DNA of 64,000 bases from Populus alba (taxonomy: Eukaryota > Streptophyta > Magnoliopsida > Malpighiales > Salicaceae), in contig NC_133292.1 in assembly GCF_005239225.2 (NCBI RefSeq), forward strand, positions 9,396,985-9,460,984, in the 5' to 3' direction. The position numbers and the translations under genes were made by a program. The notes beneath the pieces are model-generated. The model made no database searches. It was not told the DNA's origin and saw only the letters and a list, made by a program, of their open reading frames with translations. The number at the start of each line of letters is the position of its first letter. Position 1 is the first letter of the stretch. Positions 15,391 to 58,553 of the stretch are shown here, in pieces.

Positions 15391-15407
15391 GCTGGAATAG
15401 CTCAGAT

Positions 15408-15440
<33 letters not shown>

Positions 15441-15464
15441 AAGGTTCAAGCCCTTCTTCTAGCG
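15391..15464 (+). tRNA. trnN-GUU: tRNA-Asn (GTT anticodon)
   Basis: A complete 74-base cloverleaf without intron. The acceptor stem GCTGGAA pairs with TTCTAGC (one G-T pair). The D arm contains TAGCTCAGATGGTTAGAGC, the anticodon arm TGTGGCTGTTAACCACA has GTT in the loop, and the T arm is GAAGG/TTCAAGC/CCTTC. A T-run starting directly after the gene suits RNA polymerase III termination. It stands alone in intergenic DNA. Confidence 0.96.
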
Positions 15465-33700: not shown

Positions 33701-33942
33701 TTCGATAGAAGAATCTTCCCGGACGCGTTCTTGTCCTTTTCCTTGATCTCTTTAGATGTTTTGAGCTTGCTACAAGTTACAATGGTTACAGAAAGTCTAC
33801 TTCTCTTGTTGTTGTTGCTGTAAAGAGTGTGAGTTTGGGGTTTGAGCTTAAGAATTTTGGAGTTAAGGAGAAGAGTGGGTCTGCGAAAATGGGTGTTGAA
33901 TAGAGATGAGCTAAGGGGTTTTGTGGGGTTCAGAATATCCAT
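30761..33942 (-). CDS. CCS1: Cytochrome c biogenesis protein CCS1, chloroplastic (ResB family)
   Basis: Eight exons join in frame to 565 aa: 33513-33942, 33144-33363, 32953-33064, 32136-32408, 31758-32023, 31272-31428, 31104-31187 and 30761-30916. CCS1 works with CcsA in system II to attach haem to c-type cytochromes (f, c6) on the lumen side of the thylakoid. Features: a long Ser/Lys-rich plastid transit region, then membrane segments around [55 protein letters not shown] and [19 protein letters not shown] large lumenal domain lies between the last two ([16 protein letters not shown]...[10 protein letters not shown]). All match the ResB/Ccs1 family over full length. A (GAA)n run at about 31709-31737 lies in an intron. 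Confidence 0.95.
31707..31738. repeat. (AGA/GAA)n microsatellite in a CCS1 intron
   Basis: About ten tandem GAA triplets on the plus strand, inside the intron just left of the exon at 31758-32023. Confidence 0.9.
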
Positions 33943-38969: not shown

Positions 38970-39412
38970 ATGAAAGCCTTTCTTGTGATCATATGCATTC
39001 TCTTAGCAACAATCGTCTTCTCCCCCTCATCCACTTGCACTGCTCGAGAATTGCTGGGCGGGAAAGGTGAAAAACCTGTTTCTGTTTCCTTTTATTTAAT
39101 TTAAGATAATTAAGCAGCTCATATGTGTGTTCTATGTTTGTGTATGATCCTGCATGCATATATTTTAGGACCATGACTTAATTATGCTATAAATTAAGAT
39201 GCTGCTTGTTATCGCAGAGCATTTATTTATTTCTTTTTCGACTAACAATATAAATGTTTGCAGATCCATACACGGGATCTGGCCCCGCCAATTCAGGATC
39301 TCCATGCGGTGCTGATAAACAAAATTGCCTCCCTAATTCAAGTCCAGGATCGAATAAACCAAAAAAACGCTGTGACTCGCCTGTGGAGCAAACTGACTGT
39401 GACCCAAATTGA
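38970..39412 (+). CDS. Secreted cysteine-containing peptide, RISP-like, copy 1
   Basis: Two exons, 38970-39066 and 39264-39412, encode 81 aa. The precursor starts MKAFLVIICILLATIVFS, a strong signal peptide cleaved probably within STCTA/RELL. The mature part has a constant block (DPYTGSGPANSG) and four Cys spaced C-x6-C-x14-C-x9-C around a lysine-rich centre (NKPKKRC). An upstream in-frame ATG (38910) would add 20 polar residues before the signal peptide. I prefer 38970, which has A at -3 and puts the hydrophobic core at the N-terminus. By precursor length, secretion, Salicaceae context and the nearby LRR-RLP it fits the poplar RISP (rust-induced secreted peptide) family, reported as antifungal phytocytokines. 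That assignment is by context and recall, not by alignment. The mature peptide is nearly neutral and identical to copy 4. Confidence 0.8.
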
Positions 39413-39471
39413 AGATTGAAGGCGAGCAAAGTTGTATGCGTTCTTAAGAGTGACAACAACTAGTCATGTTA

Positions 39472-39492
39472 TGTGTGTGTGTGTGTGTGTGT
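39472..39492. repeat. (TG)n microsatellite in 3' UTR of copy 1
   Basis: A GT/TG run about 60 bases after the stop codon. It is present with different lengths in copies 2 and 4. Confidence 0.8.
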
Positions 39493-40209
39493 TACATATT
39501 TTGATTCCAGAACTATATATTTATGTAAGAAAAATAAATTGACTTCCCAGTACATGGTGACAGCAACTTGCATCATGATCAGGTTTTGATTTTTCTTGGT
39601 CTTGATTCCATGAAGTTGTGTAATCTTTGTTGAGGTTTATGCAAAATAAATAAAGAGCTTGATTGGTCTAGCTATCTCTTCTCTTCTATGATGCTCATAT
39701 GCCTTTGCTTTTGATTAACTTTATATCAACAAATAAAAAGATGGCCTTTAATGCTATCTCATCATAAACCCACAAGAACAAATATTTACATATAGGCTCG
39801 CGTGAAGAAGCACAGTGCCAGAGAGAGTATGGGATTTCTTTTTAATATCATTGTTATTGAAAATAATAATAATATAATTTTGAATATTATTTTAATATTA
39901 TTGTTATTGAAAATAGTAATGAAAAATAGTTTTTATACTTGGATGGTTTAATTAATTAAATTGAATCATGTTCAATTTAATTTAATGGCTTTTCAAGACC
40001 GAAACGGAACATGTGAAATGAAACCGGAACATTCTAAATAGAATTTAGTTGAAAAATCTAGAACGGGTTAAGATTTAAAATGAAATGAAAATAATTTTAT
40101 TTTATTTTATTTTTTAAATTATTATGAAATATTTCAGCTATTCCGGATAAAATGAAACGACATTGACAACCTTGAAGGAACTTGCTTTGCAACATGTGAT
40201 GATATATGG

Positions 40210-40500
40210 CAAGGTCCACACCTTCTACTTCTGGCTTAACAAAGGTTCAATGTTCGATGGATCCTTCCCCTTCTTTAATAAGGAATTGACCTGGAGCCAA
40301 GGCAGCCAGGAAGGAGCCACCGAGTGTCCGAAGAAAGAATGTCTTAAAATAAACCATTTGAGACCAAGTTGTCCAGTTTCAAGTCAAAAAGGGTCCAGAA
40401 GAGCAATGCCAGGATTTTAAATACAAGACAGAATTGAATTGTTGGCTGTCGGCTGGAGGAGCCCCGATTTTCAAGTCAAGGATGAGGGGCTACACTGGCT
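40210..40500. repeat. Conserved block D of unit 1 (unknown function)
   Basis: A ~290-base GC-richer block starting CCACACCTTCTACTTCTGGC. It is present once in every array unit (45449, 49776 and 54023). Each copy keeps an open frame containing ECPKKEC(L/F)KINHLRPSCPVSS, but without a consistent ATG or splice context. I do not recognise a family. Confidence 0.6.
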
Positions 40501-40516
40501 CCTTTCGTAAGGAGGC

Positions 40517-40620
40517 TTTTTTTATCTATTTATTTATTTATTTTATAAGCTCAAATACTTCTAGGAGGATTTGAACCCGTTTTGCAGGTGCAAGGAACTT
40601 ATTACCACTAAGGCGCATTG
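40517..40620 (-). mobile_element. Short tRNA-like SINE in unit 1
   Basis: On the minus strand: a box-A-like TTAGTGGTAATAAG, a box-B GGGTTCAAATCC, then a tail of ATAAATAAATAAATAGATAAAA. The same insertion lies in all four units, so it predates the tandem duplication. Confidence 0.65.
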
Positions 40621-40675
40621 GTTTTATAAACTATTAATTAACTTGTTTTCTTTCTAGGTACTTAAGGCTTACAGG

Positions 40676-40813
40676 CAGTGGCGGAGGGAGGGGGCTGGCA
40701 GGATTTCCTTATAAATATTTATAATTTTAATAAAAATAAGTGCAATATTTTCTTAGCTCCTTTTTAATTTATAACTTTGCCCCCTCTAATTTTTTTGTCT
40801 TGTTCCGCCCCTG
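40676..40813. mobile_element. hAT-type MITE, 138 bp, with 8-bp TSD
   Basis: Ends CAGTGGCGGA and TCCGCCCCTG form imperfect terminal inverted repeats. The element is flanked by the 8-base duplication CTTACAGG (40668-40675 and 40814-40821). Unit 3 at about 50218-50229 has the uninterrupted empty site GGCTTACAGGTTTAAATACG. An 8-bp TSD and CAGTGG ends indicate the hAT superfamily. Non-coding. Confidence 0.85.
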
Positions 40814-41235
40814 CTTACAGGTTTAAATACGACTTTTTTTATCGGAAGTTTAGTGGTTTTATAATGATTTTCACCAAGAAAATTCCCTTCTTTACTTACA
40901 GAAAAAAGCATGTTTTGTTTCCTTTTCTTGAGTTCTTTTATAATAATTTGTTTTGAGGAGAAATTCATCTTATATTTTCAAAAAATAAACAAAGTACACA
41001 AATAAAGAAAACCTAAAAAAAAAAAAAAGGAAAGTTGGAAGGACTGGACAAGCTAGACGCAGGGGCCTTTGCTTTTAATGGTTACTTGAATTTATGTGAA
41101 AAAAAATCCCAGTTGGCAAAAGGAAGCTTTTAAGAAATTCCAGTTTTAATCAATTTACACGGTGTTTGGAAGTTCAATTTAAAAAAATGAGAATTTTATA
41201 ATGCAAGAAATTTATTTAATGGTTATTTATTTACT

Positions 41236-41830
41236 TTCTCAAGGCAGATTGAGGTTGCCTCCTGGAAACGCGGCTGTCTCCGCCGAATCCATGTGCGTGT
41301 TACTGGTTTGGTTTATTCGGGCATAAATGTAGAAACTTGGTCAAGCACTCGTTTTTTACTACGTTCAATCTTCCTAGAAAATATTTTATGAAAAATATTA
41401 TGGCATTTATTTATTTTTTTAATGATATGTTTTAAAAAATTTAAAAAACCAAAATATAAAAAAACTTTATATTTAATTATTCATTATTATAATGAAATTT
41501 CAGTGTTTTTTTATTATATGCAAATGACTAGATTATTATTCATGTTATATTACAAGTTAGATTAATATTTTTTAATGGAAAAAAATATCTCAATATTTAT
41601 AACATGTTTTCTAGTAGAAACTTTTTTAATTGTTTGAGGTGATCTTATATGTCTCAATCAACTTAACGGGTTTAATAACAACCTGAACAACCAATAAAAA
41701 CATATTGGATCAATCCATGTCAACCTGAAGTAAGCTATCGAATTCACAACCCGAATAATAAAGTCGAGATAACCACATTGAAATCAAATCTAAATAAATT
41801 ATGAAATCTAAATCTCAATCAACTCAATAT
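41236..41830. repeat. Diverged second copy of the 37430-37960 segment
   Basis: Shares GGCAGATTGAGGTTGC, GAAACGCGGCTGTCTCCGCC and long downstream AT-rich homology with 37430-37960. It is more diverged than the gene copies are from one another. Minus-strand frames across it are not consistently open. Nature unknown; possibly an old mobile element. Confidence 0.6.
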
Positions 41831-42177
41831 TAAATAAAAAAAAATTATAAAAAAATTGATAAAAAAAAAGATTAAAAAAAAAAACAAACATCTTGAGTTA
41901 ACTTGAATTTACCCACCAAACTTGCAATTCAGTTTATGTGACTAAGATAACTCAACATAAATCAAATCAAAATAAATTATAAAGTTCAATTCTTAATTAA
42001 TCCATTATTAAAGGATAATTTTTTAAAAAAAAATAGTTAAATAAAAGGCACAAAAAATAACTCAAGTGAACACATCAAACTCGTGACTTAGATAATATGA
42101 CCACGATAACTTTATATAAAACAAACAAAAAAAATCATGAAATTTAATTTCAAATTAACAAAATATTAAATAATGAA

Positions 42178-42213
<36 letters not shown>

Positions 42214-42827
42214 ACTTGAGTTAACTCATTAAATTCGTAATTTAATTAAGCTATAAAACTGAGATAAAAAAAACTCATTAAAAGATAAAATTAAAGCAAA
42301 AAACTAAACCTAAAAAAAATAAAAAACAAAATAAATAAATAAAGCACTATTGAACAGTGCTCTTTGAGGAGGGGAACCCTCAATTAGTTTCTGTTAATAA
42401 TATAGAGGTCTTTTTGTAAAAACGTCTAATTTTAATTTAACGAGGAAATCAAAGATAGATTTGGGAGTGTATTTCCTCTTCTCCCTCCCCGTGTCGTTGG
42501 CCCCAAATCAATTTTTCGCATCCAAACTTCATAAAAACTCCATGTCTATTCTATCCAGGTAGATAAAGCCGGAAAATATTGGGGAAAACCTTCACATCAA
42601 TTTGGCATACATGTTCTTTAATTTGCAGCGGTGCATTCTTTCTTCCTCGTCAATTAGCTTATATGACGTAATAAAAAGATATAAGCATTGCCTAGCAATC
42701 TAAAACTTCACATTATTTTTTTTTCCGTGAACAGGATCACAATTTTTGTTAATAATAAGAGTGAATCAAAGTTTTAGGTTTACTAACAAGATTATGGTAA
42801 AACCCCTAATCTGTCTCCAAGTAAAAA
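41831..42827. other. Spacer between units 1 and 2
   Basis: Strongly AT-rich, with an (AT)n microsatellite at 42182-42211. No gene was seen. Confidence 0.4.
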
Positions 42828-43501
42828 CGACTCGAGCCCCCTTTCTACCTCAGCGATCTGCAACGGCGAAGGCAAGTTATATTTTTAATTGAATTAGTTT
42901 GAACATGTAAATGGAAAAGCTTTCGTGTTCATGCGATCCTCAAAGCTGTTTATGAGGAAACATTGGTGTTTTGTTTTTCTGGCAAAAAACAATCTTATAT
43001 ATTTCAAGAAATAAGCTTAGAACAGCCCTATTTCAAGAATTAAGATTTCAAACTACCCTAATCTTTATTAGCCACTCACTCTATGGCTAACATTCTGCAA
43101 TAATACACTTCGGTTATCACAACAAAAAAATAAAAAAAAAAATAAAAAAACAACACACGTGCTATATATGTTTTGCTTAGAAATTACCTTCTTGATGAAA
43201 AAAGGAGTCGTCATCCACATGCAAAGTCGACCAGCTAGTCTTGGGCTCTATTCTTCCCTGAATACACACACACACACTTAACAACTTGTTGCTATTATAA
43301 ATGCACTTGTACTTTTCAAAGTTGTCTTATTCAATAATACAAAGGAGTGGACACGGTGATCAATTAACAATCTCGTCTTGTGCCCATGTGAACTTTCAAG
43401 GTCACTTCCCTTCCAAAGCTGCTAATTAAGATCATGCATCCATGGTGGCTATAAATAAGAGTGGCAGCGAAGAGGCAATGATAAACACAAATATTTCCAA
43501 C

Positions 43502-43944
43502 ATGAATGCCTTTCTTGTGTTCATATGCATTCTCTTAGCAACCATCCTCTTCTCCCCCTCATCCACTTGCACTGCTCGAGAATTGCTGGGCGGGAAAGGT
43601 GAAAAACCTGTTTCTGTTTCCTTTTATTTAATTTAAGATAATTAAGCAGCTCATATGTGTGTTCTGTGTTTGTGTATCATCTTGCATGCATATATTTTAG
43701 GACCATGACTTAATTATGCTATAAATTAAGATGCTGCTTGTTATTGCAGAGCATTTATTTATTTCTTTTTCGACGAACAATATAAATGTTTGCAGATCCA
43801 TACACGGGATCTGGCCCCGCCAATTCAGGACCCCCATGCGGTCGTAGCAAACGAGATTGCAACCCCAGTTCAAAGCCAGGACCGACTAAACCAAAAAAAC
43901 GTTGTCGATCGCCTGTGGAGCAAGGTGACTGTGTCCCAAATTGA
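43502..43944 (+). CDS. Secreted cysteine-containing peptide, RISP-like, copy 2
   Basis: Exons 43502-43598 and 43796-43944 encode 81 aa with the same architecture as copy 1. Signal peptide MNAFLVFICILLATILFS, constant DPYTGSGPANSG, four Cys at identical spacing. The rest of the mature peptide is strongly changed (PPCGRSKRDCNPSSKPGPTK), making it clearly cationic (about +6 by hand count against about 0 in copy 1). The intron and UTRs remain almost identical to copy 1. An in-frame upstream ATG lies at 43442; the uORF of copy 1 is absent. Confidence 0.8.
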
Positions 43945-45718
43945 AGATTGAAGGCGAGCAAAGCTGTATGCGCTATTAAGAGGGACAACAACTAGTCTTG
44001 TTATATGTGTGTGTGTGTGTTACATATTTTGATTCCAGAACTATATATTTATGTAAGAAAAATAAATTAACTTCCCAGTACATGGTGACGGCAACTTGCA
44101 TCATGATCAGGTTTTGATTTTTCTTGGTCTTGATTCCATGAAGTTGTGTAATCTTTGTTGAGGTTTATGCAAAATAAATAAAGAGTTTGATCTCTTCTCT
44201 TCTATGATGCTCAGATGCCTTTGCTTTTGATTAACTTTATATCAACAAATAAAAAGATGGCCTTTAATGCTATCTCATCATAAACCCACAAGAACAAATA
44301 TGTACATATAGGCTCGCGTGAAGAAGCACAGTGCTAGAGAGAGTATGGGATTTTTTTTTAATTAGAAACTGGCCACTAAAATCAACAGCGCAGAAACCAT
44401 GAACAGATTTACTCCGGCTGCTCTTGTCATAGCAGCTTGTTCTTGTTTTTGGTGTTAATAATACGATCCCTGATCACTTAACAAAGAAAACTGTGAGCTA
44501 ATAAATCCCGTTTCTAAGATTAGTTGACATATATATTTCCAATAAATCAGGGACAGATCTAAATTTCAGAAACTGAAAGGCATATGCAACTATTCTTGGA
44601 GTATTGGAGAGATTTTCTGTATGGCCCAATAACTACAAATTAAATTAAAAACTAAAAAAAGCAAAGAGAAGCTTGTGACAAGGAAGATTTATGTTAACGA
44701 TCAATATAACATACTTAATTAGGAGAATATTCTGTCTGTGCAATTCTAGCATTCATGAGATGTTAATAATAAAAAAAGGAAAAATATACTGCAAAATTGT
44801 TCATTCCCGCGGGTTCGTTTCTTGAAGTTAAAAAAATGAAAGGGGGGGTAATTTCGAATGTTGTAGGAGATTGAATCAGGAAATGTAAAAAAAAATGATA
44901 AAATAAAGAAAAAAGATGATGCTATGATATGCATTACAAGAGAAAAACACAAGGAATTACTAATTTTATATCTTGAGCAGTATGTGTATCAGCTTATCTA
45001 TCTATACGTAATTAAGCTATATGTACACCTAAATAGGAAATAGAATATTCATAGTTTCTAAATTAATAGTGTAGGAATAATTAGAACCATGTACCCAAAC
45101 ACAAACACTGGTTAAATGAGTTTGTATTGCTGGTGTGGTAGGTTTGATGATAAAATAAGGGTCATGAACAAAATAACAGCTGGTGGACTTCAATTTCAAG
45201 GTATACGCTACATGTCCAGTTCTTTCTTCACCTTATTACATGCGGTACTGTGGCATCACACCAGCAAAGAGATGGGTTTTTCCCCCTAATACCCGAATCT
45301 GCTTTGCAATATTGAGAGTATTCTTTTGGAATCCATCTAACTATGTATCTCATCAGAATTAGTCTAGTCGTGATTTTATTCATTCAATAATATTATTCTA
45401 TCCTTAATAAATAAAACAAAATAAATATATTATATAACAGTAATGTCCACACCTTCTACTTCTGGCTTAACAAAGGTTCAATGTTCGACGGACCCTTCCC
45501 CTTCTTTAATAAAGACATGACTTGGAGCCACCGCAGCCAGGAAGGATCCATCGAGTGTCCAAAGAAAGAATGTCTTAAAATAAACCATTTGAGACCAAGT
45601 TGTCCAGTTTCAAGTCAAAAGGGGTCCAGAAGAGCAATGCCAAGACTTTAAATACAAGACAGAATTGTATTGTTGGCTGTCGGCTGGAGGAGCCCCGATT
45701 TTCAAGTCAAGTAAGGAG

Positions 45719-45825
45719 GCTTTTTTTATCTATTTATTTATGTTTTAAGCTCAACTACTTCTAGGAGGATTTGAATCCGTTTTGCAGGTGCAAGGAACTT
45801 ATTACCACTGAACCAAAGGCCCATT
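45719..45825 (-). mobile_element. Short tRNA-like SINE in unit 2
   Basis: Keeps the fuller head TTTGGTTCAGTGGTAATAAG. Units 1, 3 and 4 lack a few bases there (CCTTAGTGG), so this copy looks closest to the original insertion. Confidence 0.65.
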
Positions 45826-46868
45826 GGTTTTATAAATTATTGATTGACTTGTTTTCTTTTTAGTTACTTAGGCTTACTAGTTTTTTAATCGGAAGTCTAG
45901 TGGTTTTATAATGATTTTCACCAAGAAAATTCCCTTCTTTACTTACAGAAAAAGCATGTTTTATTTCCTTTTCTTGAGTTCTTTTATAATAATTTGTTTT
46001 GAGGAGAAATTCATCTTATATTTTCAAAAAATAAAATAAGTAGACAAATAAAGAAAACCTAAAAAAAAAAAAAAAGGAAAGTTGGAAGGACTGGACAAGC
46101 TAGACGCAGGCGCCTTTGCTTTTTTAATGGTTACTGAATTTATGTGAAAGAAAATCTCAGTTGGCAAAAGGAAGCTTTTTAAGAAATTCCAGTTTTAATC
46201 AATTTACATGTTGTTTGGAAGTTCAATTTGAAAAAAATGGAAATCTTTAAGGGCAACTTATGGCAATAACCGAGAAGCTGCATAGACATTTTCTGGATTC
46301 CTCCACTGGCTTACAAGCGTACAAGAAAAAAAAGAGGTCCATTCGAAAACGAACATATCTGCACATTCAAATTACAACATTTCTCTTTTCCTGGCTTTAG
46401 AGAGACGACTTGCCAAAATTAACATGCAGCCTTGGTGTTTTTTTTATATTATTATTATTTTATTTAATCAATTCAATAATTCTTTCTTTCTTCTTCTACT
46501 ACTACTACTATTATTTATTTGAATAAAAAATTATTTTAATAAAATAAATTTATCAAATATAATTAGATAGATGTCCTACCTTTTGATTTATATTTAACCA
46601 TGGATGGGCTTTATACTTCGCTGAATATATATATATATATATATATAACAACTTGTTACTATTATAAATGCACTTGTACTTTTAAAAGTTGTCTTATTCA
46701 ATAATACAAAGGAGCAGACGCGGTGATCAATAATCTCGTCTTGGGCGCATGCATGTGAACTTTCAAGGTCAGTTCCCTTCCAAAGCCGCTAATTAAGATC
46801 ATGCATGCATGGCGGCTATAAATAAGAGTGGCAGCGAAGAGGCAATGATAAACACAAATATTTCAAAC

Positions 46869-47638
46869 ATGAAAGCATTTCTTGTGGTCATATGCATTCT
46901 CTTAGCAACCATCGTCTTCTCTCCCTCATCCACTTGCACTGCGCAACAATTAGTGCGCGGGAAAGGTGAAAAACCTGTTTCTGTTTGCTTTTATTTAATT
47001 TAAGATAATTAAGCAGCTCATATGTGTGTTCTGTGTTTGTGTATGGTCTTGCATGCAAGTATTTTAGGACCATAACTTAATTAATGCTATGAATTAATTA
47101 AGAGGCTAGCAGTTATTTGTTGTCGCATAGCATTCAATATTTATTTCTTTTTCGTCGAACAATATTTTCACCATGAAACTATTATTTTGGTAGATACCAC
47201 ACTTTACTTTGAGTCTGTGATCATGACTAGAAAACATATTATTTTTTTTTTTTTTTGGTAACCCGGGGTGTCCGGGCCAGCTTACGCGCACCACGACTAT
47301 TCCCCGGGCCCACTGAACATCCTGCAAGCCCAGTAGGCAGGTAAGGCACCGCGGGGGTGACAGGCTGGTACTCTTGAGGATCGAACCAGGACCCTTCGCA
47401 AAGACAAGCTTTTGTTGTTGACCAATGTGCTAGACCCTCAAATGTAGAAAACATATTATTGATTAAGATATATCTATATAATTTTGCAGATCCATACAGG
47501 GGATCTGGCCCCGTCAATTCAGAACCTCCATGCGGTAGTAGCAAACGATATTGCCGCCCCAGTCCAAATCGAGGACCAAATAAACCAAATAAACGCTGTC
47601 AATCTTCTGCTAGGCAATCTGATTGTGACCCACATTGA
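46869..47638 (+). CDS. Secreted cysteine-containing peptide, RISP-like, copy 3
   Basis: Exons 46869-46965 and 47490-47638 encode 81 aa. Signal peptide MKAFLVVICILLATIVFS; mature part begins near QQLVRGKDPYRGSGPVNS. The four Cys and their spacing are kept, while most other mature residues differ from copies 1, 2 and 4. It is the most basic member (about +7 by hand count). The intron is 524 bases, against 197 in the other copies, because of a SINE insertion and local divergence. Splice sites remain intact (G/GTGAAA and TTGCAG). Confidence 0.78.
47228..47460 (-). mobile_element. tRNA-derived SINE in the intron of peptide gene 3, with 16-bp TSD
   Basis: A ~200-base element (47244-47444) is flanked by perfect 16-base duplications TAGAAAACATATTATT (47228-47243 and 47445-47460). 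On the minus strand it has a box-B-like GGTTCGATCC and a 3' poly-A (the T-run after 47243). It is a near full-length relative of the elements at 4973 and 50880. Confidence 0.92.
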
Positions 47639-50069
47639 AGATTGAAGACAATCAAGGTTGTATACGTGCTTAAGAGTGACACCAGCCAGCCATATTGTCA
47701 TGTGTGTGTATGCTATTTTCATTCGAGTCGAACTATATACATTTATGTAAGAAAAATAAATTAACTTCCAGCATCATGATCGGGTTTTGATTCCATGAAA
47801 TTGTGTAATCTTTGTTGGAGTTTATGCAAAATAAATAAAGAGCTTGCTATCTTCTCTTCTATGATGCTCATATGCCTTTGCTTTTATATATATGTATTAT
47901 GTTAGGACTAATAAAATTAATATTATGAACTGAATATTAATTTTTGTCTGGAGTGTCGCGATTAACTCTATATCAACAAATAAAAAGCTGGCCTTTAATG
48001 CTATCTCATCATAAACCCATGAGTACAAATATTTACATATAGGCTCGCGTGAAAAACCACAGTGCTAGAGAGAGTATGGGATTTTTTTTTTTTAATTATA
48101 AACTGGCCACTAAAGCTGCTCTTGTCATAGCAGGTTGTTCTTGTATCTTTCTCTCCAATCGGCTTTCCCTTTTGGTGTTAATAATATGATCCCTGACTTA
48201 CCAAAGAAAACTATATATGAGCTAATAAATCCCGTTTCTAAAATTAGTGTGTGTGTGTGTGATCTAAATTTCAAAAACTAAAAGGCATATGCAACTACTC
48301 TTGGAGTATTGGAGAGATTTTCGATATGGCCCAATAACTACAAATTAAATTAAAAACATAAAAAAGCAAAGAGAAGCTTGTGACAAGGAAGATTTATGTT
48401 AACGATCAATATTATAACATACCTAGGAGAATATTCTGTCTGTGCAATTCTAGCATTCATGAGATGTTAATAAAAAAAAAGGAAAAATATACTGAAAAAT
48501 TGTTCATTCCCGCAGGTTCGTTTCTTGAAGTCAAATATCATGTCTTCCACATTGAAAAAGTTAATGTTAATTTTATATAATGTTTATTTATTTTCTGATA
48601 AAAAAACATACTTTTTAAATAACTAGTTTTGAAACCCAAATTAAAACTGAAAAAATAATTTCTTAATTTTTTTTTGTAAGAGATTCCATTTTAATGAAAA
48701 AAAATGAAAGGGGGGGTGGTAATTTTCGAATGTTTGTAGGAGATTGAATCATGAAATGTATAAAAAAAAAGGATGTTAAAATAAAGAAAAAAGATAATGC
48801 TATGATTTACATTACAAGAGAAAAACACAAGGAATTATTAATTTTGTATCTTGAGCAGTATGTGTAGCAGCTTATAGCTATACACCTAAATAGGAAATAG
48901 AATATTCATAGTTTCTAAATTAATAGTGTAGGAGTAATTAGAACCATGTACCCAAACACAAACACTGGTTAAATTGCTGGTGTGGTAGGTTTGATGATAA
49001 AATAAGGGTTATGGACAAAATAATAGCAGATGGGATTTAATTTCAAGGTATACGCTTTATGTCAAGGTTCTTTCTTCACCTTATTACATGTCAAGGTACT
49101 GTGGCATCACACCAGCAAAGATGTGGGTTTTAAGAGCCGAATCTGCTTTGCAAGATTGAGATTATCCATTTGCAACCAATATAGTTTTGTATTGCTTAAT
49201 AAATCTATTAAAATTAATCTTAATCTTATACACTAAAAAATAACCAAAAATACTCTTACTAGAAGATAAAAAAATTAAATTCTAAATATTTGTCTTATGC
49301 AAAGCAAAAAATTCCTTATTTATACTAGATTTTGCATAAACAGAAAAAACAAAATATCACTTCAAAAAAATAAATTCCTATAGCAGAAGAAAAAAATACC
49401 AAAATAGTTGAATCCATGAAAAGTATATTGAATATTAAATGTCGCTTTATAAAACCAGCTATGATATAAAGTTTAAAATAATTTAATTATAATAAAAAAT
49501 AAATGCAAACATGAAAGAAAAAAAAAGACCAGAATTCTCCTTACTTCATTTCTCCAAAAAAAATCTTCCTTTAACATAAATACTACGATGTTAAAATAAT
49601 TTAAGTATCACAAAAATAAATAGGAATATGAAAGAAAAAAAGACCACAATTCTCCTCAATTCATTTCTCTAAAAGTTCTTCCTTTGACATAAATACAAAA
49701 AACTTGTTACACTAAAAATATTATTCTATTTTTAATAAATAAAACAAAATAAATATATTATTTAACGGTAATGTCCACACCTTCGACTCCTGGCTTAACA
49801 AAGGTTCAATGTTCGACGGACCCTTCCCCTTCTTTAATAAAGACTCATTGACTTGTTGCCATCGCAGCCAGGAAGGATCCAACGAGTGTCCAAAGAAAGA
49901 ATGTTTTAAAATAAACCATTTGAGACCAAGTTGTCCTGTTTCAAGTAAAAAAGGGTCCAGAAGAGCAATGCCAAGACTTACAAGACAGAACTGTATTGTT
50001 GGCTGTCGGCTTGGGAAGCCCCGATTTTCCAGTCAAGGATGAGGGGCTACGCTGGCTCCTTTCGTAAGG

Positions 50070-50172
50070 CTTTTTTATCTATTTATTTATTTATTTTATA
50101 AGCTCAAATACTTCTAGGAGGATTTGAATCCGTTTTGCAGGTGCAAGGAACTTATTACCACTAAGGCCCATT
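50070..50172 (-). mobile_element. Short tRNA-like SINE in unit 3
   Basis: The same ancestral insertion as in units 1, 2 and 4 (box B GGATTCAAATCC, tail of TAAATAAATAAATAG). Confidence 0.65.
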
Positions 50173-50865
50173 GGTTTTATAAACTATTAATTAACTTGTT
50201 TTCTTTCTAGGTACTTAGGCTTACAGGTTTAAATACGACTTGTTTTATCGGTAGTTTAGTAGTTTTATATATATATATATATGGAGATTAAAATTAAACA
50301 TTTGAAAAAAAAAAAAAAAAAAAACAAAGAGAGCATAGTTAAAGGAACAGTGCCCGCTCGGACAAAGATGAAATTCGAATATGATTACACATATCCATAT
50401 ATATTATTTTTCATTCTTTTATATTGTATATTTTCTTGAATAATTTATTTTTTGAAATATTTTTTTATTGGATTTATATTTTGATTACTCATATTTAACC
50501 ATGTATGAGAGTTGTGATAAGATTCAACATTTTTATGAACTTAATATTATTTTTTTATATATGATATTAACTATCAAATATCATTGCAAAATTATATATA
50601 TATCCTTACATGGTATATCCTTAACAAGAACACACCACCACAGGAACATAGAAAAGAATCTGAGGCCAAAACTTTTACCAGCTCATGCAGTCAAAACAGA
50701 GGATCTCCAACACAACAATGAGAATTTCATACTATTCTTTTCTAATCCCTAACCTCTTCTGTACAATACAACGATGAGATTTTCTATTTAGGATAAAACA
50801 TGTTGTTTTGATAAGGGTCTGTCGATCATTTTTATCATTTTTTTTTTGTCAGTTTTTATGAATAT

Positions 50866-51006
50866 GAACTTTTTAAGTTTTTTTTTTTTTTTTTAGTTTA
50901 ACGTAGGTGTTCGGGTCAGCTTGCGCGCACCTCGACTAATTCCACGGGTCCTGAAGTTAACGACCATGTAAGCCTCCAATGGCTATCATATGAGAACTTT
51001 TAAGTT
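50866..51006 (-). mobile_element. 5'-truncated SINE with TSD in unit 4
   Basis: The SINE body at 50880-50993 has a T-run on its left (minus-strand poly-A) and near-identical flanks GAACTTTTTAAGTT and GAACTTTTAAGTT. Unit 1 at about 38335-38350 has the empty site. It lacks the box-B end of the family, so it is 5' truncated. Confidence 0.85.
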
Positions 51007-51386
51007 ATATTTTTAATTGAATTAGTTTGAACATGTAAATGGAAAAGCTTTCGTGTTCATGCGATCCTCAAAGCTGTTTATGAGGCAAAATTGGTGTTTT
51101 GTTTTTCTGGCAAAAACAACCTTATTTCAAGAAATAAGCATAAATCAACGCTATTTCAAGAATTAAGATTTCAAACTACCCTAATCTTTATTAGCCACTC
51201 ACTTTATGGCTAACATTTTGCAACAATACACTTCGGTTATCACAACAAAAATAATAATAATAAAAAAAAAAACAACACACGTGCTATATATGTTTTGCTT
51301 AGAAATTACCTTCTTGATGAAAAATGGAGTCGTCGTCCCCATGCAAAGTCGACCAGCTAGTCTTGGGCTTCATTCTTCGCTGAATA

Positions 51387-51387
51387 T

Positions 51388-51431
<44 letters not shown>
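51387..51431. repeat. (TA)n microsatellite upstream of peptide gene 4
   Basis: A long TA run about 20 bases upstream of the TATA box region. Copy 1 has a shorter TA run, copy 2 an (AC)n run, and copy 3 a TA run at the same place. Confidence 0.9.
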
Positions 51432-51432
<1 letters not shown>

Positions 51433-51659
51433 CAACAACTTGTTGCTATTATAAATGCACTTCTACTTTTCAAAGTTGTCTTATTCAATAATACAAAGGA
51501 GTGGACACGGTGATCAATTAATTAACAATCTCGTCTTGTGCCCATGTGAACTTTCAAGGTCACTTCCCTTCCAAAGCTGCTAATTAAGATCATGCATCCA
51601 TGGTGGCTATAAATAAGAGTGGCAGCGAAGAGGCAATGATAAACACAAATATTTCCAAC

Positions 51660-52102
51660 ATGAAAGCCTTTCTTGTGATCATATGCATTCTCTTAGCAAC
51701 CATCCTCTTCTCCCCCTCATCCACTTGCACTGCTCGAGAATTGCTGGGCGGGAAAGGTGAAAAACCTGTTTCTGTTTCCTTTTATTTAATTTAAGATAAT
51801 TAAGCAGCTCATATGTGTGTTCTGTGTTTGTGTATCATCTTGCATGCATATATTTTAGGACCATGACTTAATTATGCTATAAATTAAGATGCTGCTTGTT
51901 ATCGCAGAGCATTTATTTATTTCTTTTTCGACTAACAATATAAATGTTTGCAGATCCATACACGGGATCTGGCCCCGCCAATTCAGGATCTCCATGCGGT
52001 GCTGATAAACAAAATTGCCTCCCTAATTCAAGTCCAGGATCGAATAAACCAAAAAAACGTTGTGACTCGCCTGTGGAGCAAACTGACTGTGACCCAAATT
52101 GA
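51660..52102 (+). CDS. Secreted cysteine-containing peptide, RISP-like, copy 4
   Basis: Exons 51660-51756 and 51954-52102 encode 81 aa. The mature peptide is identical to copy 1 (GADKQNCLPNSSPGSNKPKK centre). The leader and first half of the intron carry copy-2-type variants, while the second half of the intron, exon 2 and 3' UTR carry copy-1-type variants, so the gene is a mosaic. The in-frame upstream ATG is at 51600. It is the copy closest to the receptor gene (3.2 kb). Confidence 0.8.
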
Positions 52103-54324
52103 AGATTGAAGGCGAGCAAAGTTGTATGCGGTCTTAAGAGTGACAACAACTAGTCATGTTATGTGTGTGTGTGTGTGTGTGTGTGTTACATATTTTGATT
52201 CCAGAACTATACATTTATGTAAGAAAAATAAATTAACTTCCCAGTACATGGTGACAGCAACTTGCATCATGATCAGGTTTTGATTTTTCTTGGTCTTGAT
52301 TCCATGAAGTTGTGTAATCTTTGTTGAGGTTTATGCAAAATAAATAAAGAGCTTGATTGGTCTAGCTATCTCTTCTCTTCTATGATGCTCATATGCCTTT
52401 GCTTTTGATGAACTTTATACCAACAAATAAAAAGCTGGCCTTTAATACTATCTCATCATAAACCCACAAGAACAAATATTTACATATAGGCTCGCGTGAA
52501 GAAGCACAGTGCTAGAGAGAGTATGGGGTTTTTTTTAATTAGAAACTGGCCACTAAAATCAACAGCGCAGAAATCATGAACTGATTTTACTCCGGCTGCT
52601 CTTGTCATAGCAGCTTGTTCTTGTTTTTGGTGTTAATTATACGATCCCTGATCACTTAACAAAGAAAACTGTGAGCTAATAAATCCCGTTTCTAATATAT
52701 TTCCAATAAATCAGGGACAGATCTAAATTTCAGAAACTAAAAGGCATATGCAACTACTCTTGGAGTATTGGAGAGATTTTTGATATGGCCCAATAACTAC
52801 AAATTAAATTAAAAACTAAAAAAAAGCAAAGAAAAGCTTGTGACAAGGAAGATTTATGTTAACGATCAATATAACATACTTAATTAGGAGAATATTCTGT
52901 CTGTGCAATTCTAGCATTCATGAGATGTTAATAATAAAAAAAGGAAAAATATACTGCAAAATTGTTCATTCCCGCGGGTTCGTTTCTTGAAGTTAAAAAA
53001 ATGAAAGGGGGGGTAATTTCGAATGTTGTAGGAGATTGAATCAGGAAATGTAAAAAAAAAATGATAAAATAAAGAAAAACTATGATATACATTACAAGAG
53101 AAAAACACAAGGAATTACTAATTTTGTATCTTGAGCAGTATGTGTATCAGTTTATTTTTATGTAATTAAGCTATACACCTAAATAGGAAATAAAATATTC
53201 ATAGTTTCTAAATTAATGGTGTAGGAATAATTAGAACCATGTACCCAAACACAAACACTGGTTAAATGAGTTTGTAGTGCTGGTGTAGTAGGTTTGATGA
53301 TAAAATAAGGGTCATGAACAAAATAACAGCTGGTGGACTTCAATTTCAAGGTATACGCTACGTGTCCAGTTCTTTCTTCACCTTATTACATGCGGTACTG
53401 TGGCATCACACCAGCAAAGAGATGGGTTTTAAGAGCCGAATCTGCTTTGTAAAAGATTGAGAGAATCATTTTACAACCGATTTAGTTTTGTATAGCTTAA
53501 TAGATCTATTAAAATTAATCTTGATTTAATACATTTAATAATAATCAATAGCACTCTTATCCGTAGGTAAAGGAATCAAGTTTCAAGTATATGTCTTATA
53601 TAAAGTAAAAAGTTCTCAAATTCATACTAGATTTTGCAGAAATAAAAAACAATATTATTCTAAAAAAAACTTCCTTTAGCAGAAGATAAAATTACCAAAA
53701 TAGTTGGATATGTGAAAGTTGTGTTTGAAATTAAACCTCGTTTTATAAAACTAACTCTAATACTATATTAAAACAATTCAGTTAAATATAAATTCTAGCT
53801 TTATTTTATAAAATCAGCTATGATACTATATTAAAATAATTCAATTAACACAAAAATAAATACAAACATGGAAGAGAAGGAGGCTAGAATTCTCCCCAAT
53901 TTCATTTGTCTAAAAGTTCTTCCTTTAACATAATAAAAAAAACTTAGATATATGTTAAATTAAAAGTATTATCTTATTCTTAATAAATAAAACAAAATAA
54001 ATATATTATTTAACAGTACTGTCCACACCTTCTACTCCTGGCTTAACAAAGGTTCAATGTTCGACGGACCCTTCCCCTTCTTCAATAAAGACTCATTGAC
54101 TTGGAGCCATCGCAGCCGGGAAGGATCCAACGAGTGTCCAAAGAAAGAATGTTTTAAAATAAACCATTTGAGACCAAGTTGTCCTGTTTCAAGTCAAAAA
54201 GGGTCCAGAAGAGCAATGCCAAGCCTTTAAATACAAGACAGAACTGTATTGTTGGCTGTCGGCTTGGGGAGCCCCGATTTTCCAGTCAAGGATGAGGGGC
54301 TACGCTGGCTCCTTTCGTAAGGAG

Positions 54325-54420
54325 CTCTATTTATTTATTTATTTTATAAGCTCAAATACTTCTAGGAGGATTTGAACCGGTTTTGCAAGTGCAAGGAACT
54401 TATTACCACTAAGGCCCATT
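54325..54420 (-). mobile_element. Short tRNA-like SINE in unit 4
   Basis: Box-B-like GGTTCAAATCC and the TAAATAAATAAATAG tail, orthologous to those in the other units. Confidence 0.6.
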
Positions 54421-55082
54421 GGTTTTATAAACTATTCATTAACTTGTTTTCTTTTAAGGTACTTAGGCTTACTAGTTTAAATACGACTTTTTGTTATCGG
54501 AAGTTTAGTAGTTTTATAATGATTTTCACCAAGAAAATTCCCTTTTTTACTTACAGAAAAAGCATGTTTTATTTCCTATTCTTGATTTCTTTTATAATAA
54601 CTTTCTACATTGGAAGCACATCGGGAGTCATTTAGTTGAATGTTTCAAAACACGTATGTGCCTGAACAAACTCCCCTCGAAACAATGAGTTAAATGATAC
54701 TTGACGTCAAAAATCATCACATTTTCATATGACAATTTGTTTTGAGGAGAAATTCATCTTATATTTTCAAAAAGAATAATAATAAAGAAAACCTTGAAAA
54801 AAAAAAAGGAAAGTTGGAAAGGATTGGACAAGCTAGACGCAGGGGCCTTTGCTTTAAATGGTTACTTGAATTTATGTGAAAAAAATCTCAGTTGGCAAAA
54901 GGAAGCTTTTAAGAAATTCCATTGGTGAATTATACTTGAGGAAAACCAGTCTGATCATTTCAAAACTGTGACCACAATTTTTTCTTCCTCTAGTTGTTTT
55001 TATAAATTTCAGTAAAACATTTAGCAGCGCAGCCCAACTAATCCGCCCGCCAGGAGCTAAGTTGACACTCTTGCTTTTTTTA

Positions 55083-55118
55083 AAGAACCGAGCAAGTTGC
55101 AAGAACCGAGCAAGTTGC
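55083..55118. repeat. 18-bp perfect tandem duplication in the receptor promoter
   Basis: AAGAACCGAGCAAGTTGC occurs twice head to tail (55083-55100 and 55101-55118), about 120 bases upstream of the TATA box. Confidence 0.9.
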
Positions 55119-55237
55119 AAGAACACTGCTGTCTTGCAGAATAATGGGCCAAAAAAGGAAAGCGGTAGGAATCTTACTGTTTGCAATTAGTGATTTTATA
55201 ATTACGGCAAAAATTTGAGTCGCACAGTCAAGCTGTC

Positions 55238-55245
55238 TATAAATA
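55238..55245 (+). promoter_or_regulatory. TATA box of the LRR-RLP gene
   Basis: TATAAATA, 100 bases before the ATG at 55338, at the expected place for a short leader. Confidence 0.7.
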
Positions 55246-55337
55246 GTACAAAACACACATTTGATTTCCGTCTCACCCGAGTGCTCGAGCACCTTAATTT
55301 CATTTTGCGTCCACTGTTTTGAATACTGAAAGAGAAA

Positions 55338-58300
55338 ATGGGATGTTTACTACGGTTCACTCAGTCTGTGTCTTTAATTTTGTTTCTCTTGCATTTTAAT
55401 CCAACAGTTTCGTCATCCTTGTCTTCAAACTTCTCCTCTTCAGCTCAATTGTGTGCCCGTGACCAAAGTATTCATCTGCTCCAGTTCAAAGATTCTTTTT
55501 CCATTAATCCTTCTGCTTCTTTTGAGTATTGTGAAAATCCCAAGACAGAGTCATGGAAAGAGGGCACAGATTGCTGCTTGTGGGATGGGGTGACTTGTGA
55601 CATCAAGAGTGGGCAAGTCATTGGGCTTGACCTTGCCTGCAGCATGCTTTATGGCGCTCTCCATTCCAATAGCACTCTCTTCTCCCTTCATCATCTTCAA
55701 AAGCTCGACCTCTCTTACAATGATTTCAATCTCTCTCATATTTCATCTCAGTTTGGCGACTTTTCCAGTTTGACACATCTTAACCTAAACTATTCGGGTT
55801 TTACTGGCCTAGTTCCATCACAAATCTCTCATCTGTCCAAACTGGTTTCGCTTGATCTCTCTTATAATAACAAACTGGCACTAGAACCAATTCCTTTTAA
55901 CAAGCTTGTTCAAAACCTAACCAAGCTAAGAGAACTTCATTTGAGCGAGGTAGACATGTCAATGGTTGTACCCAGTTCCTTGATGAATCTTTCTTCTCCT
56001 TTGTCATCACTCCAGCTCATTAGATGTGGATTGCAAGGGAAATTACCAAGTAACGTCCATGGGCTATCAAACTTGCAGCTGCTTGATTTATCGGAGAACA
56101 TGGACCTTACTGGCTCTTTTCCACCATTCAATGTGAGTAATGCTCTTTCATACTTGGATCTATCAATGACGGGGATTTCAATACATCTAGAACATGATCC
56201 AGTTAATAATTTGAAGTCGGTGAAGCAATTGTATCTTAAACAATGCAATTTTACTGGCTCAAGTCTACCACGGCTTGGCAACCTCACACAACTCACTGTG
56301 TTGGACATTTCATATAACAACTTGAGTGGTCACATCCCTTTCTCTATAGGAAAACTTAAGCACCTCCAGACCTTGAATCTCGGATTCAACAATTTTACAG
56401 GTTCGGTTCCATCTGATTTTGAGCAGCTCACTGAGTTGGTTTCACTTGATCTCTCTGGGAACTCTTACCTGACACTAGATTCATCTTCTCTTAACAAGCT
56501 TGTTCAAAACCTAACCAAGTTAAGAAAACTCCTTTTGCGGTGGGTAAATATGTCTTTGGTTGTACCCAATTCCTTGAAGAATTTTCCGTCTTCTTTGTCA
56601 ATTCTTTCTTTCGGGAATTGTGGGCTGCGAGGGGAATTCCCAGCCAACATCTTTCTCTTACCAAACCTTGAATTTCTCAATTTGGGGGGTAACGTAGGCC
56701 TCACAGGTTCTTTTCCTTCCTCCAATGTGAGCAGTTCCCTCGAGGAGTTAGCTCTTTTTGATACGAAAATCTCAATTTCTATCGAGAATGACTTTATCAA
56801 TAATCTAAAGTCGTTGACAAAGCTGTATCTCAGTAACTGTAACATTAGCAAAAGATCAAATCTAGCCCTACTTGGTAACCTCACACAGCTTATTGAATTA
56901 GATCTCGCATTTAATAATTTGAGTGGCCGCATCCCGTCATCTCTTGCAAACCTTGTGAATCTCAATTTGTTGGATCTTAGTTCCAATAATTTCAAGGGTC
57001 AGATTCCAGATTTTTTGGGTAGCCTGACACAACTTGAACGTTTATTTTTATCAGATAATCAATTGCTAGGCCCTATCTCTCCTCAAATAACCAGCCTTCC
57101 AAATCTAATATCTCTCATGTTATCTGATAACTTGTTCACGGGCACAATACCGTCCTTTTTGTTTTCTCATCCCTCTCTGCAGTATTTGGACCTCCATGGT
57201 AACTTATTCACTGGGAATTTAAGTGAATTCCAGTACAATTCATTAAGATTGCTTGATTTGAGCAATAACCACTTGCATGGCCCAATTCCAAGTTCAGTTT
57301 TCAATCAAGAGAACTTGATAGTCCTTAAACTTGCATCCAACAAGTTAACAGGAGAGATTTCTTCTTCTGCTTGTAAGCTGACAGCCCTACAAGTACTTGA
57401 CTTGTCCAACAACAGCTTGAGTGGTTTTATACCACAATGTCTGGGGAGCTTGAGCGACAGTCTCTCAGTGTTGCATCTTGGCATGAATGATCTCCAAGGC
57501 ACAATCCTTTCAAGGTTTTTGGTGGGGAATAACTTGAGATATCTCAATCTCAATGGCAACGAATTGGAAGGGGAAATACCACCATCTATGATCAACTGTA
57601 CACAATTGGAGGTTCTTGATCTTGGCTTCAATAAGATAAAAGGCAAGTTCCCCTACTTTCTGGATACGCTTCAAGAGCTACAGGTTCTTGTTCTAAAATC
57701 CAACGAGCTCCATGGGTTTGTGAAAGGTCCGACGACCAGCTACGCCTTTTCAAAACTAAGGATTTTTGACATCTCCAGCAATAATTTTAGTGGACCATTG
57801 CCAACTGGGTATTTCAATGGTCTGGAAGCAATGAAGACCTTGGATCAAGATATGATTTACATGAAGGTTAGAAACATCAGTTATGATTATTCTGTAAAAC
57901 TGACGTGGAAAGGGCTGGAAATTGAGTTTGTGAAAATTAGAAGTACCCTCGCATTCATTGATTTGTCGCACAACAGTTTTATTGGAGAGATACCAGAGTC
58001 GATTGGAAAGCTTAATGCACTTCAACAGCTAAACTTCTCTCACAACTCCCTTACAGGATATATTCAACCTTCATTGGGGAATTTGGCCAATCTGGAATCG
58101 TTAGATCTCTCTTCAAATTTGCTTACGGGAAGGATTCCGATGCAGTTGGCAGATCTAACATTTCTTAGTGTCCTAAACCTTTCACATAACCAGCTAGAGG
58201 GACCCATACCTAAAGGAAAGCAGTTCAACACGTTCAATAAGGGCTCATTCGAAGGAAACTCGGGCTTGTGTGGATTTCAAATCTCAAATGAATGCAATAG

Positions 58301-58553
58301 TGGTGAGACACAACAACCACCACCATCAAACTCCGAAGAAGGAGATGATTCATCACTGTTTGGAGATGGATTTGGATGGAAAGCAGTTGTGATGGGGTAT
58401 GGATGTGGATTTGTGTTTGGAGCTACAGTGGGATACATAGTGTTTAGAACAAGAAAACCGGCATGGTTTGTGAGGATGGTCGAAGTTCAATGGAATCCGA
58501 AAACAAAAGGAAGAAAGAAGAAAGCTCACAGAAACGGTGCAAGAAGAAACTAA
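55338..58553 (+). CDS. LRR receptor-like protein (Cf/RLP type), candidate RALR-type receptor
   Basis: An intact intronless gene of 1071 aa. A signal peptide (about 1-25) precedes the LRRNT with paired Cys (C39; GTDCCLWDGVTCD, C79-C87). About thirty extracellular LRRs follow (LDLSxNxLxGxIPxxL), interrupted by a non-LRR island (about 825-868, containing SVKLTWKGLEIEF), then about four more repeats and a Cys cap ending at C986. An acidic juxtamembrane stretch leads to one membrane helix (about 1014-1036) with overlapping GxxxG motifs (GYGCGFVFGATVG). The 35-residue tail is basic and there is no kinase. RLPs of this form signal with the co-kinase SOBIR1 through the GxxxG helix. Its position next to the secreted-peptide array matches the reported RISP/RALR pairing. 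The ligand is inferred, not shown. Confidence 0.93.
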   Translation: MGCLLRFTQSVSLILFLLHFNPTVSSSLSSNFSSSAQLCARDQSIHLLQFKDSFSINPSASFEYCENPKTESWKEGTDCCLWDGVTCDIKSGQVIGLDLACSMLYGALHSNSTLFSLHHLQKLDLSYNDFNLSHISSQFGDFSSLTHLNLNYSGFTGLVPSQISHLSKLVSLDLSYNNKLALEPIPFNKLVQNLTKLRELHLSEVDMSMVVPSSLMNLSSPLSSLQLIRCGLQGKLPSNVHGLSNLQLLDLSENMDLTGSFPPFNVSNALSYLDLSMTGISIHLEHDPVNNLKSVKQLYLKQCNFTGSSLPRLGNLTQLTVLDISYNNLSGHIPFSIGKLKHLQTLNLGFNNFTGSVPSDFEQLTELVSLDLSGNSYLTLDSSSLNKLVQNLTKLRKLLLRWVNMSLVVPNSLKNFPSSLSILSFGNCGLRGEFPANIFLLPNLEFLNLGGNVGLTGSFPSSNVSSSLEELALFDTKISISIENDFINNLKSLTKLYLSNCNISKRSNLALLGNLTQLIELDLAFNNLSGRIPSSLANLVNLNLLDLSSNNFKGQIPDFLGSLTQLERLFLSDNQLLGPISPQITSLPNLISLMLSDNLFTGTIPSFLFSHPSLQYLDLHGNLFTGNLSEFQYNSLRLLDLSNNHLHGPIPSSVFNQENLIVLKLASNKLTGEISSSACKLTALQVLDLSNNSLSGFIPQCLGSLSDSLSVLHLGMNDLQGTILSRFLVGNNLRYLNLNGNELEGEIPPSMINCTQLEVLDLGFNKIKGKFPYFLDTLQELQVLVLKSNELHGFVKGPTTSYAFSKLRIFDISSNNFSGPLPTGYFNGLEAMKTLDQDMIYMKVRNISYDYSVKLTWKGLEIEFVKIRSTLAFIDLSHNSFIGEIPESIGKLNALQQLNFSHNSLTGYIQPSLGNLANLESLDLSSNLLTGRIPMQLADLTFLSVLNLSHNQLEGPIPKGKQFNTFNKGSFEGNSGLCGFQISNECNSGETQQPPPSNSEEGDDSSLFGDGFGWKAVVMGYGCGFVFGATVGYIVFRTRKPAWFVRMVEVQWNPKTKGRKKKAHRNGARRN

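Follow-up and report, generated by a model that had tools for sequence, protein, structure and literature searches.

When genes for small secreted peptides stand next to a gene for a leucine-rich repeat (LRR) receptor-like protein (RLP), are the peptides the ligands of that receptor? This question is raised by a stretch of 64,000 nucleotides of Populus alba (NC_133292.1, positions 9,396,985 to 9,460,984, forward strand), which is called the window below and lies on contig C9 of the genome that we searched (96 contigs, 416 Mb). Judged by its sequence, the stretch is quite probably the chromosome-9 RISP/RALR locus, with four tandem RISP-family genes (G1 to G4) and one LRR-RLP gene, and its predicted secreted peptides likely bind that RLP and would trigger immune signalling. 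It is, on this evidence, a real and enlarged instance of a known ligand/receptor module, not a new system: the pairing of RISP and RLP genes is already published for other poplars, and it is the array that is enlarged here.

Organization of the locus

The five genes of the putative module were delimited by spliced translation and alignment, and isoelectric points (pI) were predicted for the mature peptides.

38970-39066 and 39264-39412, plus strand: G1, RISP-family gene, 81 aa, mature pI 5.96
43502-43598 and 43796-43944, plus strand: G2, RISP-family gene, 81 aa, mature pI 9.56, divergent mature exon
46869-46965 and 47490-47638, plus strand: G3, RISP-family gene, 81 aa, mature pI 9.84, clusters with P. 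trichocarpa RISP
51660-51756 and 51954-52102, plus strand: G4, RISP-family gene, 81 aa, mature peptide as in G1
55338-58553, plus strand: LRR-RLP gene, 1071 aa, in the clade of the P. trichocarpa chromosome 9 RLP (LRR-RLP9/RALR lineage)

The initial annotation of this DNA had described four tandem genes for 81-aa secreted peptides with four cysteines, adjoining an intact LRR-RLP gene, and had proposed the whole as a candidate RISP/RALR module. The four genes are found at the places that it gave and the receptor frame is intact, and the module call holds as well, with peptides homologous to RISP and an RLP that clusters with the P. trichocarpa chromosome 9 RLP. The number of peptides is what had to be corrected: G1 and G4 differ by one V/L exchange, which falls in the signal region, and their mature parts are identical, so three mature peptides come from the four genes. 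One receptor may still face several ligand variants, as was suggested, but the number of mature forms falls from four to three.

The introns of G1 to G4 have GT-AG borders, and TATAAATA is found 52 bp 5' of the ATG in each of them and 100 bp 5' of the RLP ATG. An in-frame ATG lies 24 bp 5' of the chosen start in all four peptide genes, and several database models of homologues begin at that upstream ATG or earlier. The approximately 3.2 kb from the G4 stop to the RLP ATG consist of the G4 3' flank and a repeated block (block P, see below), with no other gene recognised between. Besides, the G3 intron is 524 bp long, compared with 197 bp in G1, G2 and G4; its extra stretch (window 47240-47453) has a poly-T and a tRNA box-B-like motif and resembles, by eye, a reversed short interspersed element.

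Homology of the peptides to RISP

In all four peptides, cysteines 47, 54, 69 and 78 fall in the predicted mature part, while C9 and C23 lie within or at the end of the signal region. The alignment gives the mature cysteines a spacing of 7-15-9, the same as in RISP, whose cysteines are published as C48, 55, 70 and 79 (PMC4756128), and the hydrophobic N-termini are nearly identical to that of RISP. The first homology search returned 14 of 17 candidates at E ≤ 0.001, all 14 from Populus or Salix.

P. trichocarpa P0003 is taken as RISP in what follows. It has 83 aa from its MKAF start and a mature part of 60 aa with pI 9.56, and published RISP has 82 aa and a mature form of 60 aa with pI 9.5 (PMC3975113, PMC4756128). 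What's more, P0003 contains CGSSKQS, which is the hand translation of the published forward primer for quantitative PCR of RISP. In the window this primer matches only G3 (3 mismatches), while the reverse primer has two matches, the better in G3 (1 mismatch) and the other near G1 (3 mismatches). In the alignment, G3 shares 79% identity with P0003, G1 and G2 75% each, and G4 74%. With MKAF taken as the start, P. tomentosa P0004 has exactly the sequence of G1, and P. alba x berolinensis proteins whose locus tags are consecutive reach 96% identity to G2 and 95% to G3.

A peptide tree was built from 29 rows, namely G1 to G4 and 25 hand-chosen homologues, with a long-branch warning for Ziziphus and Jatropha. 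All four genes fall in one clade with the chromosome-9-type RISPs of poplar and willow (support 99/97). Within it, G3 groups with P. trichocarpa P0003 (90/78), G1 and G4 with P. trichocarpa P0007 and P0009 (85/85), and G2 with P. alba x berolinensis P0005 (99/97). Search, alignment and tree therefore agree on the similarity to RISP that had been proposed from the sequence. Pfam gave no family for G1 or G3 at E ≤ 0.1, and searches of solved structures with the RISP profile and P0180 as queries gave chance matches only; RISP itself is reported to have no detectable secondary structure (PMC4756128).

The receptor-like protein

The RLP tree (quick search, midpoint root) has 80 rows, for which 79 of the 120 listed homologues were retained by length. 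The window RLP and eight other rows, including POPTR_009G112061v4, make up one side of a branch with 100 in the Shimodaira-Hasegawa-like approximate likelihood-ratio test (SH-aLRT). The placement with RALR that the initial annotation expected is thus borne out by phylogeny, the reference being the P. trichocarpa chromosome 9 RLP. We take POPTR_009G112061v4 as the LRR-RLP9 of Petre et al. 2014, which is described as the only LRR-RLP on chromosome 9 and as paired with RISP (PMC3975113). Among the listed homologues, the closest match by score comes from P. x canadensis, where a RISP and this RLP have neighbouring locus tags (Peur_073551 and Peur_073550). The best-scoring RLP of solved structure is RXEG1. 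No RLP-like match (E ≤ 0.01) was found within 20 kb beyond either window end. P. x canadensis P0016 shares with the window RLP one LRR of 26 aa (window 56187-56264; residues 284-309), as does Salix viminalis P0024; neither P. trichocarpa P0020 nor the P. alba x berolinensis protein P0018 has it.

In the mechanism that we propose, the peptides would be secreted, induced by rust or wounding, and perceived by the neighbouring RLP together with a SOBIR1/SERK-type partner, and the cationic forms G2 and G3 would also act antifungally. Lintz and colleagues (2025) are reported to find that RISP and RALR cooperate in immune signalling. Cooperation of RISP and RALR in immune signalling is also stated in a review (PMC13157962), and RISP is reported to inhibit rust growth and to trigger alkalinisation of poplar cells (PMC4756128).

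A repeated block between the genes

Self-comparison of the window revealed a block, here called P, after each of G1, G2, G3 and G4, the last of these copies forming the RLP upstream region, and showed no copy ahead of G1.

40214-41198, no strand assigned: block P copy 1, between G1 and G2
45445-46249, no strand assigned: block P copy 2, between G2 and G3, about -1.4 to -0.6 kb of G3
49773-50260, no strand assigned: block P copy 3, shortened, between G3 and G4
54021-54921, no strand assigned: block P copy 4, RLP upstream region, about -1.3 to -0.4 kb

A 460-bp probe from block P has four matches in the whole genome, by a search that skips very common words, and all four are at this locus; a dispersed transposon is therefore unsupported. 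An upstream stretch common to a RISP gene and its LRR-RLP was described in 2014 (PMC3975113), and block P is, by its position, probably the same stretch. Block P alternates with the peptide genes, makes up the region ahead of the RLP and has no genome match outside this locus, so debris of tandem duplication probably explains the published "shared promoter". The simplest history is likely an ancestral arrangement RISP-P-RLP, in which the RISP-P unit would then have been duplicated repeatedly. Block P would give the shared stretch of 2014 a plain cause, one that predicts upstream copies at G2 to G4 and none at G1.

All four copies contain an uninterrupted open reading frame (ORF) with CPKKEC...SCPVSS (window 40214-40420, 45445-45650, 49773-50042 and 54021-54230). 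From its ATG it has 56 to 77 codons, with an in-frame 3-bp difference among copies, and its proportions of synonymous and nonsynonymous differences (0.03-0.18 and 0.03-0.08) are not decisive for coding. W-boxes were also considered as a shared control element; the 1.5 kb ahead of each of the five genes holds 0 to 4 of them, the window average being 1.64, and no enrichment is claimed.

Divergence of the mature-peptide exon

The four genes are not equally divergent along their length. Between G2 and G4, differences amount to 2 of 97 sites in exon 1, 2 of 197 in the intron and 23 of 149 in exon 2; between G1 and G2 to 4 of 97, 5 of 197 and 24 of 149; and between G1 and G4 to 2 of 97, 3 of 197 and 1 of 149. 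In other words, the mature-peptide exon of G2 differs from that of G1 and G4 by 15-16%, while the introns differ by 1-2.5%. Against G3, the difference is 18-21% in exon 2, about 10% in the intron and 19-22% in the 200 bases that come next; as its intron and flank are also divergent, the contrast is strong only for G2 against G1 and G4.

Rates of nonsynonymous (dN) and synonymous (dS) change were estimated by the NG86 method over residues 26-81. It turned out that dN and dS are 0.174 and 0.114 for G1-G2, 0.174 and 0.087 for G2-G4, 0.272 and 0.194 for G1-G3, 0.231 and 0.186 for G2-G3, and 0.272 and 0.227 for G3-G4. For G2-G4, 19 of about 125 nonsynonymous sites are changed, compared with 2 of 197 intron sites (Fisher p 5.9e-7, rounded counts), and the same comparison for G1-G2 gives p 4.0e-5 (rounded counts).

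A mosaic test used the three-way sites between -350 and +845, as the homology of G1 does not extend past +850. In the segment from -160 to +180, 11 of 13 sites unite G2 and G4, and in the remainder 44 of 48 unite G1 and G4, a pattern matched by none of 2000 shuffles. At the 23 exon 2 sites where G1 and G4 agree and G2 differs, G3 sides with G2 at 12, with G1 and G4 at 7 and with neither at 4, so that both exon 2 lineages seem to have changed. We read the mosaic as recombination plus diversification, in which recombination would have made the 5' halves of G2 and G4 alike and left exon 2 shared by G1 and G4.

Charge of the mature peptides

The predicted mature pI is 5.96 for G1 and G4 (net charge 0), 9.56 for G2 and 9.84 for G3. 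Among 15 chromosome-9-type rows, a set that omits P0010 (two cysteines) and P0169 (partial), 12 have a pI of at least 8.7, and the remaining three, all 5.96, are G1, G4 and P. tomentosa P0004. RISP has been assigned to a family of secreted peptides that are cationic, rich in cysteine and specific to Salicaceae (PMC7472956); we filed the cationic G2 and G3 as RISP, and G1 and G4, which have no cationic charge, as RISP paralogues. The acidic mature peptide is a new point for this locus, and it would part the antifungal charge from a possible signalling role inside one family.

A more far-reaching idea, speculative and on balance doubtful, is that the array is a ligand-diversifying cassette, in which recombination would keep promoter and signal exon alike and shuttle a hypervariable mature exon between copies. 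It would have produced an acidic RISP (G1 and G4) without antifungal charge, whose sole target would be the one receptor, where it would serve purely as a signal or compete with the cationic RISPs. If this were true, dual antifungal-and-signal peptides would have separated here into specialised forms that a single receptor perceives.

Relatives of RISP elsewhere

Exon 1 has 12 matches in the genome: four at this locus, one lone weak match with a stop codon on contig C4 (9701515-9701616, L024; E 0.088), and seven on contig C17 at 16.65-16.69 Mb. The latter form a second tandem array of RISP relatives (C17:16649366-16690206, loci L025-L029) with seven first exons, all of which retain a donor-like GGTG, near nucleotide 88 in the copy whose first exon is disrupted and near 91 in the others. 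Five of the seven also have an exon 2 with four cysteines, of the type CGRGxRYC...Y(K/Q)RxC, and none was recognised in the other two. The G4 proximal promoter and exon 1 match this array at 67-87% in pieces, and a stretch of the 3' flank at 67%; block P has no match in the array region. No RLP-like match (E ≤ 0.01) was found in the 110 kb read around it. The literature searched, which excluded Lintz et al. 2025, gave no mention of the C17 array, and we make no claim that it is unpublished. Salix viminalis P0136 and S. dunnii P0138 are gene models that fuse two C17-type peptides and may be annotation errors.

A profile search with 14 relatives as query returned 61 proteins at E ≤ 1, including some from Jatropha (2.6e-8), Ziziphus (4e-4), Gossypium (0.026 and 0.13) and Liquidambar (0.23), with the signal region contributing part of the scores. 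Petre et al. 2014 report one RISP paralogue and no homologue in other plants (PMC3975113). In view of the C17 array and the Jatropha and Ziziphus relatives, RISP looks like a derived offshoot of an older family, not a Salicaceae orphan. Some relatives have weak Pfam matches, namely RCR (0.0068), Smim3 (0.48) and, for the C17-type P0142, P0141 and P0013, Conotoxin (0.0012-0.086), all under cut-offs or unconfirmed, besides chance-level rows for P0176 and P0178; as these are small, signal-bearing, cysteine-rich proteins, we took such matches as chance.

Elsewhere the window has a tRNA gene at 15391-15464 (Rfam RF00005, 70.2 bits) and two minus-strand ORFs, of which the one at 8773-10493 resembles an ARIADNE-type RBR ubiquitin ligase and the one at 32004-33942 a chloroplast protein of the CCS1-like kind.

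Alternative explanations

Several points weigh against the reading as a RISP/RALR ligand and receptor locus, or against parts of it. The grouping of G3 with P. trichocarpa RISP carries just 90/78, the cationic charge used to describe the RISP family is missing from G1 and G4, and a further RLP copy may exist elsewhere in the genome. Besides, synonymous change in exon 2 also exceeds intron change (p 0.057 for G1-G2 and 0.010 for G2-G4), and nonsynonymous against synonymous change alone is not significant in the mature part of G1-G2 (Fisher p 0.44); recombination of older exons is thus as good an explanation as positive selection. Simple positive selection as the sole cause of the exon 2 divergence is not separable from recombination. 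The divergence could also mean relaxed constraint after duplication, with G1 and G4 as redundant or decaying copies that have no separate function. Two of the four genes do give one mature product, and duplicates in arrays often decay; but open frames, cysteines, splice sites and TATA are retained in all four, the acidic form is unchanged in P. tomentosa P0004, and relaxation alone would not make exon 2 faster than the intron, as it is in G2-G4 (5.9e-7). We consider decay quite improbable.

The peptides might instead be mainly antifungal, their place beside the RLP a by-product of both lying in a defence cluster that undergoes duplication, and the RLP might sense something else, e.g. a fungal protein. 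The reported inhibition of rust growth by RISP (PMC4756128) is in line with this, RXEG1, the best-scoring solved RLP, binds a microbial enzyme, and the C17 relatives, with no RLP-like match in the 110 kb read, indicate that the RISP family needs no linked receptor. However, RISP also alkalinises poplar cells (PMC4756128), its cooperation with RALR is reported (PMC13157962), and a cationic, membrane-active mode of action would hardly account for the acidic G1/G4 peptide. We consider a mainly antifungal role unlikely. Alkalinisation of cell cultures by RISP (PMC4756128) would also suit a divergent RALF acting through FERONIA-type receptors rather than the neighbouring RLP, and UniRef labels P. 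trichocarpa P0007 and, in a truncated label, Ziziphus P0176 as Rapid ALkalinization Factor. Membership in RALF is not supported: only one of 14 RISP relatives matched Pfam RALF (E 2.2), at 9.9 bits against a cut-off of 22, none exceeded it, and P0176, P0180-P0182 and P0144-P0146 have no Pfam RALF match. We regard this explanation as very improbable.

Comparison with known systems

Under the reading as a RISP/RALR locus, three natural ligand variants and one receptor would make a ready-made test of specificity evolution, since plant peptide ligands are rarely known beside their receptors. The nearest known system is poplar RISP with LRR-RLP9/580 of P. trichocarpa (PMC3975113, PMC4756128), a pair later named RISP/RALR. 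There too, the peptides are homologous and have the same cysteine spacing, a RISP gene adjoins an RLP that belongs to the same clade, and peptide gene and RLP have upstream sequence in common. The P. alba locus differs in its four peptide genes with three mature forms, one of them acidic, at one locus, and in that the shared upstream stretch is probably block P, which follows each peptide gene. LRR-RLP immune receptors of the Cf-9/RXEG1 type bind microbial proteins, whereas the proposed ligand here is the plant's own. At the SCR/SRK self-incompatibility locus, a variable small cysteine-rich ligand is genetically linked to a receptor, SRK being a receptor kinase for pollen recognition. The P. 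alba locus would share with it a variable small cysteine-rich ligand linked to its receptor, but has several ligand genes and a single receptor without a kinase.

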